A DNA stretch of 64,000 nucleotides from Blautia sp. SC05B48 (lineage in GTDB: Bacteria; Bacillota; Clostridia; Lachnospirales; Lachnospiraceae): assembly GCF_005848555.1 (NCBI RefSeq), contig NZ_CP040518.1, positions 3,487,501 to 3,551,500 on the forward strand. The letters run 5' to 3'. Of this stretch, positions 23,602 to 27,721 are shown piece by piece (positions within the stretch are counted from its first letter, which is position 1; the number at the start of each line of letters is the position of its first letter). A program made the translations under genes and the position numbers. The notes under the pieces are model-generated. The model searched no databases, was not told the origin of the DNA, and saw only the letters and a list, made by a program, of their open reading frames with translations.

Positions 23602-25458
23602 CTATTTTTCCAGGCGCATCAGCATATCATCCAAAATATCTTCCAAATACCCGCCCGTTGTTTTTTCCCCATCTTTTTTTATCTGGAGCATCGCTTCCAA
23701 ATCTTCATCGGACAGACAGATGATCAGTTTTCCGCTTTCCCGGAGGCTTCCCCGTGCGGCCATTTTCGCATTTTTATCCGCTCCTTTTCTGGAAATAATG
23801 ATCGCAACTTTACGGAGAGCTTTTTCGTACAGATATTTTTCTGTAGTGTAGATTTCCCTCTGGGTAATAGGCTTTTCATAGTTTTTAAACTCAAACACGA
23901 TATACTTCGTAGAAAAATACTTACAGATCGTGTCAAAAAAATCCTGTGTTACCCCGTTTTTGATCTTACAGCACATGTCAAAGCGATACAGATTTTCTTC
24001 TGTTGTCTTCTGCTGCTCCCACAAAGTCAGATATTCTCCAAGGATATATTTCAGGATAGAAACACAAAGTTCCTCATATTTCTTGAAAGCTGCACTACCA
24101 GTCTCCAGCGCTTTTAACTGCGCTATATAGCTGTCAACAACAGATTCCGGATCCGTATTCTCCACCTGGCTGATTTTCTCAAAAATAAAAGGCTCCGGTC
24201 TCTCCGGTTCTATGTTTTCCACCGAATAATTCAGGATTGAGATCAGTTCATTCTTCAGTTCCGGATAGTCCTCAAAGAGCCACAGCACATTTCGGATGTC
24301 CCAGACATATCCAAGCTTCGCCTCTTCGTACTTTCTCTTGGTCTCATCAGAGATTAGATTCGCCACTACACAGATATTTTGTAATGGCAGATCCTTTTTC
24401 TGATCTGACACTGCTTTTCCAGCCAGACGGCTATAACTCTGCAGCCGGTTAAGTGTAGCGATTTCTTTAGAATCACTGTACATTCTGGTCACAAAAACCC
24501 ATTTCTCATCGCTTTGGAAAGAACCTCCTTTATATGTAAGGAATTCTTCAAAAAGCTGCTTAAAGCGGGCCGTATTTTCCCAGTTTTTCATTTGTACATC
24601 ACCCTCTGAATTTATATAGGGTTCTGCGCAGAGATTGCGAACAATCTGTTCTGTCACTTTTATGTTCGGCGCATATATCAGGCTTCTGTACATCCGGCTT
24701 TTGTTTGGCACAGAACGTGGAAAATCTTCCGGAAATCCCTTTAATCTGGCTATTTCTTTGTGTGTGATCTTATGATAGACGCCATGGATACGGATCAGCG
24801 GCATTTTTCTCAGATTCAGACGAACCTGCCCGGATTCCCGATAACCGCCTTTTTCCCAACACAAAACGCTGTCGCCGGCATGCGAAGCATCGATCTTCTC
24901 TTTCGCAAAATCAATCCTGTAATACCAGGAATCCTGTGGATTCATTTCCACCCAGCCATCCAACAGGTTACTGCTCTTATGGAACTGCACCGGCATGACC
25001 ATATCCGAAGTATTCACTCTTTTTAAAACAATATATGCAAATTCTTCCCGCAGCGGAAATGCAGTAACCTCCGAACTCTGGATATTTTTATGCGTGATAT
25101 GGTATCCATATTCTTGTAGCTGAAAAATGTGTTCCTTTATGAACCCTTTCCATAATTGCTTTTTCATAACAAAAAGAATGACCGGCGGCCGTCTTCTTTG
25201 CACCAGGGCCCAACTACGAAACACCTCTTCTTCTTTCGACTGCGTCAGATCAAAAGCCCAGACATTACTGTCCGGAACTGTGGCAGGATCTATGGAAGAA
25301 AGGCTGCATACAGTTACATTTTGACTTATATTTTCTTGATAGATCTCTGTCACTTTCCTGTCCGGCTCATATGCTTTCAAAATCTCATAACCGGCATTTT
25401 TAAAACCCAGAGTCAGTGCACCGATACCGGCATTAAAGATCACTACTGTATTCTTCAT
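23602..25458 (-). CDS. fusion of inactive cytosine-C5 methyltransferase fold and PD-(D/E)XK nuclease
   Basis: 618 residues. Residues 5-275 follow a DNA C5-methyltransferase: a motif-I-like FNAGIGALTLGFKNAGY (8-24), E31 of motif II, and the C-terminal IARLKGFPEDF (236-246) of motif X. The catalytic Pro-Cys of motif IV is absent (VWAFDLTQ, 67-73), as are the ENV and QxRxR motifs, so methylation is unlikely. Residues 318-410 look like a second, degenerate nuclease-type or Rossmann-like domain (ICVVANLIS, VWDIRNVLWLFED). Residues 455-590 carry an apparently intact nuclease core: D494, then E523-F-K525 (VFEFKNY), and Q533 with YTTEKYLYEKA, as in Mrr-type restriction enzymes. No partner methylase is in the window. 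It could be a lone modification-dependent restriction or defence protein. A decayed nuclease gene lies 15 bases upstream. Confidence 0.7.
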   Translation of the reverse strand: MKNTVVIFNAGIGALTLGFKNAGYEILKAYEPDRKVTEIYQENISQNVTVCSLSSIDPATVPDSNVWAFDLTQSKEEEVFRSWALVQRRRPPVILFVMKKQLWKGFIKEHIFQLQEYGYHITHKNIQSSEVTAFPLREEFAYIVLKRVNTSDMVMPVQFHKSSNLLDGWVEMNPQDSWYYRIDFAKEKIDASHAGDSVLCWEKGGYRESGQVRLNLRKMPLIRIHGVYHKITHKEIARLKGFPEDFPRSVPNKSRMYRSLIYAPNIKVTEQIVRNLCAEPYINSEGDVQMKNWENTARFKQLFEEFLTYKGGSFQSDEKWVFVTRMYSDSKEIATLNRLQSYSRLAGKAVSDQKKDLPLQNICVVANLISDETKRKYEEAKLGYVWDIRNVLWLFEDYPELKNELISILNYSVENIEPERPEPFIFEKISQVENTDPESVVDSYIAQLKALETGSAAFKKYEELCVSILKYILGEYLTLWEQQKTTEENLYRFDMCCKIKNGVTQDFFDTICKYFSTKYIVFEFKNYEKPITQREIYTTEKYLYEKALRKVAIIISRKGADKNAKMAARGSLRESGKLIICLSDEDLEAMLQIKKDGEKTTGGYLEDILDDMLMRLEK

Positions 25459-25841: not shown

Positions 25842-27680
25842 TTACTCCACTGTCACGCTCTTCGCCAGATTTCGTGGTTTATCCACGTCCAGTCCTTTGG
25901 CTACGCTTACGTAGTAGCCCAGAAGCTGAAGCGGGATCACTGCCAGGGATGTTGCAAAGTGCGGGTCTGTTTTCGGGATGTAGACGGTGAAGTCTGCGGT
26001 ATCCTCGATATTGTAATTGCCAAATGTGGTCAGGCCCATAAGGTAGGCGCCACGGCTCTTGCACTCAACCATATTGCTGACTGTTTTTTCGTAGAGATCC
26101 GGCTGGGTCAGCACACCGATCACAAGAGTTCCGTCTTCGATCAGGGAGATAGTTCCATGTTTCAGCTCTCCTGCCGCATAGGCTTCAGAGTGGATGTAGC
26201 TGATCTCTTTCATCTTCAGGCTGCCCTCCAGGCTGATGGCGTAATCAATTCCTCTTCCTACAAAGAAAGCATCTTTTACATTTGCCTGTTTGGAGGCAAA
26301 CCACTGGATACGCTCCTTATCTTCCAGGATCTTACAGATCTTATCCGGAAGTGTCTGCAATTCACTGATATAATTACTGTAGGCTTCTTCTGTGATCGTC
26401 CCTCTTACCATTGCAAACTGGATCGCCAGTGTATAAGCTGCGATCAACTGTGTGCTGTACGCCTTGGTAGTAGCTACAGAAATCTCCGGTCCGGCCAGAG
26501 TATAAAATACATTATCAGCCTCACGTGCTATGGAAGATCCCACTACATTAACGATTCCCAGTGTATGAATACCATTTTCCTTGCATTTACGAAGTGCTGC
26601 AAGGCTGTCTGCTGTTTCACCGGACTGGCTGATGATCACTGCAAGGCTGTTGGTGTTAAGGGCCATTTTTCGGTAACGGAATTCGGAAGCGAGTTCTACC
26701 CTTACCGGGATCTGTGCAAGATCCTCGATCACATACTGTGCTGCCATTCCTACGTGATAAGCGGAGCCGCAGGCTATGATATAGATCTGCTGGATGTTCC
26801 GGATGCTTTCTTCTTCCAGGCCAACTTCGCTGAGGTCGATCTTTCCATCCTTGAGCACGGAATTCAACGTATCCAGCACTGCCTTTGGCTGTTCATGGAT
26901 CTCTTTCATCATGAAATGCTCATATCCGGCTTTTTCTGCTACTTCTGCATCCCATTCAATGGTTTTCAGCTCTTTCTCGATCTCATCTCCATCAAGATTG
27001 TAGAAGGTGACTTCGCCTTTTTTCACACGCGCCATCTCCAAATTGCCGATATAATATACATTGCGGGTGTATTTCAGGATCGCCGGTACGTCAGAAGCGA
27101 TAAAGGATTCATCTTCTGCCACTCCAAGGATCATGGGGCTGTCTTTTCTGGCTACATATATTTCACCCGGATAATCCTTGAACATGATCGCAAGGGCATA
27201 GGAACCACGGATACGCACCATGGAATGTGTGATGGCATCCACCGGTGTTCCCTCATATTTCTTGTAATAATAGTCAATCAGTTTGACTGCTACCTCGGTA
27301 TCGGTCTCAGAATAGAAAGTATATCCTTTACGGGTGAGCTTATTTTTCAGTTCCTGATAGTTCTCAATGATGCCGTTGTGGACTGCTACGATATTACCAT
27401 CGTCTGTCATATGAGGATGTGCATTGTTCTCAGAGGGTTCACCATGAGTTGCCCATCTGGTATGGCCGATACCACAGGTTCCCGGTACTGTCTCTCCGCC
27501 GTTTGTCTTTTCTGACAGAACTTTCAGTCTTCCCTTGGCTTTGATCACTTCAGTCTCGCCCTCTCCGTCACGTACGGCGATTCCAGCGGAATCATATCCT
27601 CTGTATTCCAGCTTGGAGAGTCCATCTAAAAGGATCGGAGCTGCCTGGTGTCTACCTGTAAATCCTACAATTCCACACAT
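25842..27680 (-). CDS. glmS: glutamine-fructose-6-phosphate aminotransferase (isomerizing)
   Basis: Makes glucosamine-6-phosphate from fructose-6-phosphate and glutamine, the entry to peptidoglycan precursors. 612 residues. The start at 27680 is required so that the catalytic Cys follows the initiator Met (MCGIVGFTG). Seen: the glutaminase GHTRWATHG near 72, two SIS sugar-isomerase domains with SQSGETADSL near 350 and the C-terminal end KSVTVE. The upstream gap to ilvA is about 107 bases and holds a hairpin but no glmS ribozyme core that I can recognise. Confidence 0.98.
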   Translation of the reverse strand: MCGIVGFTGRHQAAPILLDGLSKLEYRGYDSAGIAVRDGEGETEVIKAKGRLKVLSEKTNGGETVPGTCGIGHTRWATHGEPSENNAHPHMTDDGNIVAVHNGIIENYQELKNKLTRKGYTFYSETDTEVAVKLIDYYYKKYEGTPVDAITHSMVRIRGSYALAIMFKDYPGEIYVARKDSPMILGVAEDESFIASDVPAILKYTRNVYYIGNLEMARVKKGEVTFYNLDGDEIEKELKTIEWDAEVAEKAGYEHFMMKEIHEQPKAVLDTLNSVLKDGKIDLSEVGLEEESIRNIQQIYIIACGSAYHVGMAAQYVIEDLAQIPVRVELASEFRYRKMALNTNSLAVIISQSGETADSLAALRKCKENGIHTLGIVNVVGSSIAREADNVFYTLAGPEISVATTKAYSTQLIAAYTLAIQFAMVRGTITEEAYSNYISELQTLPDKICKILEDKERIQWFASKQANVKDAFFVGRGIDYAISLEGSLKMKEISYIHSEAYAAGELKHGTISLIEDGTLVIGVLTQPDLYEKTVSNMVECKSRGAYLMGLTTFGNYNIEDTADFTVYIPKTDPHFATSLAVIPLQLLGYYVSVAKGLDVDKPRNLAKSVTVE

Positions 27681-27721
27681 ATTTATCTGTCCTTTCTGTC
27701 TATGCAGGTATTTTCGCAAAA

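Follow-up and report, generated by a model that had tools for sequence, protein, structure and literature searches.

A dead C5-cytosine methyltransferase domain fused to a FokI-like nuclease domain in Blautia: a candidate solitary defense nuclease

The genome of the gut bacterium Blautia sp. SC05B48 (Lachnospiraceae) is a single contig of 3.73 Mb, of which we analyzed a stretch of 64,000 nt (NZ_CP040518.1, positions 3,487,501 to 3,551,500; hereafter the window). A gene on its minus strand (positions 23602..25458) encodes a 618 aa protein in which the remains of a C5-cytosine methyltransferase (MTase) are followed by two domains of the PD-(D/E)XK nuclease type; the motif positions given below, all on the same strand, were confirmed by re-translation. 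An original prediction, made from the sequence alone, had described the gene as a catalytically dead C5-MTase fold joined to an intact-looking nuclease. Both the C5-MTase fold and the PD-(D/E)XK core were recovered by fold prediction, and the architecture turned out to be conserved in 15 loci.

The dead MTase domain (residues 1-283, 24610..25458) has a predicted C5-MTase fold and shares fold and motif order with M.HhaI and M.HaeIII, from which it differs by the lack of the catalytic Cys, of ENV and of QxRxR and by the new invariant residues E138 and K240. The remnant of motif I, FNAGIGALTLGF (residues 8-19, 25402..25437), retains Gly13 and has Asn at the Phe9 position. Motif IV is eroded to VWAFDLTQS (residues 66-74, 25237..25263) without the catalytic Cys, VMKK (residues 97-100, 25159..25170) stands as the eroded motif VI where ENV is expected, motif VIII is rewritten to PLREEFAY (residues 135-142, 25033..25056) with E138 instead of the first Arg of QxRxR, and motif IX, ITHKEIARLKGFPEDF (residues 231-246, 24721..24768), has K240 instead of Gln. 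We aligned 16 dead domains, comprising 14 nuclease-fused ones including the window copy and two further ones described below (L145 and L152; the fusions L029 and L034 were left out), with 61 ordinary relatives. The catalytic Cys is found in all 61 ordinary relatives and in none of the dead domains, one of which has a gap there. The E97 column, V in the window copy, is E in 61/61 ordinary relatives. Position 138 is Glu in 16/16 dead domains, compared with Arg in 60/61 and Lys in 1/61 ordinary ones, and position 240 is Lys in 16/16, compared with Gln (54), Met (3) or a gap (4) in the 61. The predicted loss of Pro-Cys (motif IV), ENV (VI) and QxRxR (VIII), the marks of an active C5-cytosine DNA methyltransferase, is thus borne out by the alignment, with the fold itself present. 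We reject the reading of the gene as an ordinary methylase that has mutated, because the 13 other aligned fusion rows equally lack the catalytic Cys. As judged from its sequence, the N-terminal domain is a C5-MTase descendant devoid of the residues for methyl transfer and not a decayed methylase.

The middle domain (residues 292-425, 24184..24585) is Mrr-like and homologous to the Mrr_cat domain of standalone relatives, which match that Pfam model at this place with E-values up to 3e-12; the window protein itself gives no match. The D...E-x-K site is intact in L025-L029 and L033, whereas the window copy lacks D and E-x-K, the latter eroded to VTRMY (residues 323-327, 24478..24492) according to alignment and re-translation. 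This agrees with the initial description of a nuclease-like, degenerate domain. The C-terminal domain (residues 426-618, 23605..24183) has a predicted PD-(D/E)XK core fold and carries a putative metal ligand, D494 (23977..23979), that is conserved in 81/81 aligned rows, as well as the active site E523-F-K525 (23884..23892), in which E is found in 80/81 rows (Asp in one) and K in 81/81. The acidic-acidic-Lys site of a FokI/BspD6I-type nuclease, to go by this alignment, is present, and the domain looks like an intact FokI-type nuclease. The prediction had named the same residues correctly and assigned them to an Mrr-type nuclease, which should read FokI/Nt.BspD6I-like. The structural match to AspBHI/MspJI is weaker by Z than that to FokI/Nt.BspD6I and involves the cleavage fold. 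FokI and Nt.BspD6I/R.BspD6I, type IIS and heterodimeric enzymes, respectively, have recognition domains that are not MTase folds, and cognate methylases accompany them. They show no sequence similarity to the window domain in a sequence and profile search of solved structures with E up to 1, which returned only weak unrelated matches (E ≥0.16). The PADLOC candidate PDC-M36A is matched by 67/81 rows, and by the window protein with 3e-14 for the C-terminal domain alone and 3.2e-13 for the whole chain, over about 150 positions only (285-435 of 457 model positions). We found no mention of PDC-M36 in the literature searched, which consisted mainly of open texts without supplements. An ATPase domain was not found in Pfam, PADLOC and NCBIfam scans of the window protein, and nothing follows the nuclease in the chain.

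Across the 84,980 species genomes scanned, 117 relatives were confirmed, 80 of which enter the family counts. These 80 were sorted by their N-termini, with part of the 53 that have no recognized added domain scanned individually. The dead-MTase fusion is present in 15 of the 80, uninterrupted in 11 (L019-L028, L033) and interrupted in four (L029, L030, L031, L034) by frameshifts, stop codons or a deletion, which could reflect decay, switching or assembly error. Near-copies occur among them (L020/L021, L025/L026, window/L019); hence, the independent fusion lineages number fewer than 15. The fusion relatives belong mostly to Clostridia, with L033 labeled Gastranaerophilales, and the architecture persists down to 33% identity; the closest copy, with 94% identity, is from Blautia massiliensis (L002/L019). 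In a tree of the C-terminal domain (90 rows, quick search, support from the SH-like approximate likelihood ratio test, SH-aLRT, only), the 16 MTase-fused rows require one change without the four truncated rows and four changes with them, so that a single fusion event is sufficient if the truncated rows are not counted.

The other N-termini among the 80 are TIR domains (3), and single ResIII-like helicase lobes (5); in four truncated copies, the N-terminus is not visible. The TIR fusions to the Mrr-like and FokI-like module (L038:5353-6786, L043:5356-6786 and L060:5419-6912) form a single clade in the C-domain tree. Four of the superfamily 2 helicase-lobe fusions (L055:115-1620, L057:1581-3146, L061:5353-6849, L062:5206-6801 and L066:4487-6082) were recognized by Pfam ResIII, and L066 was placed by eye and tree position without such a match. 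By eye, Walker A looks degenerate in 4/5 of them, with an intact GVGKT only in L057. Relatives without the MTase were also found on plasmids and in four IMG/VR contigs. On a Rhizobium plasmid (L015:199-3361), genes annotated as TIR, HhH-GPD, 7-cyano-7-deazaguanine synthase and a second TIR lie directly upstream of the standalone nuclease, a gene set that may constitute a multi-gene defense operon.

The ratios of nonsynonymous to synonymous substitution rates (dN/dS) for the dead MTase, middle and nuclease domains were 0.36, 0.14 and 0.17 between the window copy and L019, 0.38, 0.18 and 0.06 between L020 and L022, and 0.34, 0.14 and 0.08 between L020 and L021. The pair L025 and L026, with few changes, gave 0.33, 0.76 and an undefined value, and L023 and L143 are identical. 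The dead MTase domain is maintained by purifying selection and is the fastest-changing part in the first three pairs. That the fusion is a decaying gene without function is therefore very unlikely in our view: whole-gene dN/dS is 0.21-0.23 in these three pairs (0.60 in the fourth, with few changes), the nuclease site is retained across the 81 rows with a single E to D exchange, and the architecture has outlasted divergence to 33% identity, even though four of the 15 fusion loci are interrupted and the middle-domain site was lost in several lineages.

The dead domain is not confined to this nuclease. A search with its profile in the same family matched 115/397 genomes, mostly through ordinary methylases, and the loci of the best 30 were inspected. 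Upon rescoring of the open reading frames (ORFs) in these 30 loci, four scored above ordinary methylases: that of G641 (identical to L023), the window gene, L145 and L152. In L145:1486-3387 (+) and L152:130-2058 (-), a dead C5-MTase that has lost Cys and ENV and carries E138 and K240 like the window family is joined to a different C-terminal module. The C-terminus of L145 stands alone in Ilyobacter as an annotated 'DNA-binding protein' (53% identity), and this similarity is the sole basis for naming both C-termini. After masking of 13 motif columns, a single branch (SH-aLRT 92; quick search, SH-aLRT support only) still divided the two other and the 14 nuclease-fused dead domains from the 61 ordinary ones. 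Grouped despite the masking and found on a second module, the dead domain looks like a recombining module. It also seems rare, since no further one was found in the best 30 loci of a class sample (391 genomes, 58 matched at 1e-12) nor, besides the window, in the seven loci inspected from a phylum sample (398 genomes, eight matched at 1e-20). Of 65 ORFs from the profile searches, seven lack PC[QN], four being the already known dead ones including the window gene and three having PCT or PCA, which we counted as ordinary. A viral scan with the dead-MTase profile gave no relative.

Our preferred reading, to which we would give about an even chance, is that the protein is a solitary defense nuclease in which the dead MTase recognizes invading DNA and positions the FokI-type cutter. 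The N-terminal domain, coming from a type II C5 MTase and without methyl transfer, would now be a recognition module for a site on DNA, or for one in a particular modification state, to which it would bind. It would place the C-terminal domain, a cutter of the type needing an external recognition domain, which would probably cleave once two copies meet. The middle domain, whose catalytic residues are lost in the window copy, may be a linker or an extra DNA grip. Phages or plasmids would be the targets, and the host might escape self-cleavage through protection by a resident methylase, through a modified base as target or through an activation step. Such a reader-cutter arrangement is supported by the predicted folds, the loss of MTase residues in 14 nuclease-fused copies, the nuclease site, the selection on the gene, the sufficiency of one fusion origin and the fact that no conserved partner was seen. 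The original interpretation of a single-gene defense nuclease, modification-dependent or target-sensing, with the dead MTase as DNA reader, is partly supported as a whole.

Several observations weigh against a solitary DNA reader. The nuclease module also occurs in copies that have no MTase domain, and it must therefore have other means of control or targeting. As placed by homology, the Glu that replaces Arg in motif VIII lies close to the cleft facing the DNA; being acidic, E138 could weaken DNA binding of the ordinary MTase kind. The fusion gene has a neighborhood in the window that resembles housekeeping genes and not a defense island, and two of seven neighboring proteins, chosen by eye near fusion genes for a PADLOC scan, had no match. 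The carrier genomes, finally, do not clearly point to a methylase that would be required for protection: an ordinary C5 MTase occurs in 13/16 carriers compared with 88/150 family genomes over the Pfam cut-off (Fisher p 0.11; the 150 include the window's own genome, and fusion matches were left in the count).

As the prediction had noted, the window holds no other C5 MTase, and no conserved partner gene was seen around 83 loci, where the survey covered 3 kb (some loci being on short contigs) and recurrence meant presence at four or more loci. No MTase family recurs by this measure. A cognate active methylase, as a type II restriction-modification system would have, was found neither in the gene nor beside it, and a split restriction-modification system with an adjacent C5 methylase was rejected on these grounds. 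The idea that carriers depend on a cognate C5 methylase encoded elsewhere in their genomes was likewise dismissed, as none was found in G836 and G840, which carry the intact fusions L023 and L027, or in G846 (truncated), and the enrichment among carriers is not significant. G836 and G840 are drafts possibly missing genes; the other match in G836 is by eye an RsmB-like rRNA methylase, and the sole match in G840 is the fusion itself. The two intact carriers also speak against a regulatory or dominant-negative role, in which the dead MTase would occupy the sites of an invader's methylase or partner a resident C5 methylase, like inactive DNMT3-type proteins. For DndH, such a role of the inactive DAM domain has been suggested in the part of that report available to us (PMC10853773), and it would suit the 13 carriers with an ordinary C5 MTase; since mere occupancy would not need the conserved nuclease site, we regard it as quite unlikely here.

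The lack of an obligate methylase would also fit a strictly modification-dependent, type IV-like enzyme, with the dead MTase as a base-flipping reader of methylated, hydroxymethylated or glucosylated cytosine. The fold similarity to AspBHI/MspJI points the same way; it ranks below that to FokI/Nt.BspD6I, however, and concerns the cleavage fold only. Compared with type IV Mrr and AspBHI/MspJI, the window middle domain lacks its site, and no SRA-type reader was found. The marks of the two ordinary C5 MTases in the own genome would also have to be tolerated, and we consider such an enzyme improbable.

The dead MTase might instead be a decoy or trap that baits phage anti-restriction proteins or methylase partners encoded by phages, binding of which would free the nuclease so that the cell is killed or DNA degraded. 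The dead MTase, TIR and ResIII-type lobe at the N-terminus of the nuclease module all resemble components of other defense systems, the dead MTase occurs on the unrelated module of L145 and L152 as well, and, of the three domains, it is the quickest to evolve in those pairs that have enough changes. Inactive domains have been discussed as sensors or decoys in BREX-related systems, inactive restriction endonuclease domains among them, in the accessible part of PMC12839542. A decoy should, however, retain the surface of the active enzyme, from which E138 and K240 depart, and we think this explanation unlikely. A broader and doubtful, if conceivable, view is that the dead C5-MTase family is a mobile immunity sensor of single origin with its own invariants E138, K240 and N265 and at least two unrelated effectors. 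These may be the FokI-like nuclease, which takes several kinds of sensor, and the DNA-binding module that also stands alone. As the sensors (methylase, TIR, restriction helicase) resemble pieces of defense systems, their role may be that of integrated decoys for the detection of anti-restriction factors of phages; if so, they would be a bacterial counterpart of the integrated decoys in plant immune receptors.

Around the family, only two neighbor families recur, integrases (4 loci) and OLD/Gabija-type ATPases (5 loci), both named by eye. Matches in PADLOC were obtained for 5/7 of the chosen neighbors, namely, GajA and GajB (L033), a PDC-S66-like protein (L025), a TIR effector (L026) and a type II MTase (L027). 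In the Gastranaerophilales draft genome, GajA and GajB of Gabija (L033:1739-4419) lie upstream of the fusion gene with one ORF between. The 12 neighbors scanned in the window have a housekeeping look (glmS-like, phosphate transporter, SRP54/FtsY-type GTPases, SMC, RNase III). The glmS-like gene (25842-27719) has a second, 84% identical copy in the genome at C1:220744. Among 61 related genomes, the own one counted, the full fusion protein is present in two, the own genome and G004. The possibility that glmS and the phosphate transporter flank a mobile island was considered and dropped, as the gene-less relatives checked do not have both genes together: they are ~26 kb apart on the same contig in G005, 1.6 Mb apart in G001 and on different contigs in G016 and G009, which leaves no clean empty site. 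Suggestively, the similarity of a near-identical flank in G016 stops at position 23603, in the fusion stop codon, with unrelated sequence beyond. Promoter-like sites were not in excess of shuffled sequences (6 observed, shuffle mean 6.7).

The remark in the prediction that no described system is known to have exactly this architecture holds for the C5 version in the literature searched and not in kind. The closest precedent is DndH of DndFGH, which, in the part of the report available (PMC10853773), has target recognition domains, an inactive adenine MTase and an active-looking restriction endonuclease in one chain with no modification activity of its own, and for whose dead MTase the authors propose the dominant-negative role. 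DndH differs by its adenine-type MTase, HerA/FtsK ATPase and partner proteins, whereas the window protein has a C5-cytosine MTase, a FokI-type nuclease, no ATPase domain found and no conserved partner seen. Eukaryotic DRM3 and inactive DNMT3B splice forms, as far as the partial sources go, are inactive C5 MTases with non-catalytic roles as well; they act with active methylases and have no nuclease. Neither the C5 version with its FokI-like partner nor the swap of dead MTase, TIR and helicase lobe was described in the literature searched. In the libraries, Pfam covers only the methylase part, the NCBIfam methylase model stays below its cut-off and the nuclease part is matched in PADLOC by a candidate that has no name.

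Engineered reader-FokI nucleases seem to have a natural parallel in this fusion, in which one gene combines a dead DNA-modifying enzyme with a FokI-type cutter. Should the dead domain read DNA, direct tests become possible of its specificity and of how the host, with no methylase of its own, escapes cutting; should it be a bait, parts of restriction systems would here form a decoy-based sensor. In both cases, these proteins belong to a family, unnamed as such in the libraries searched, in which sensors and effectors recombine.
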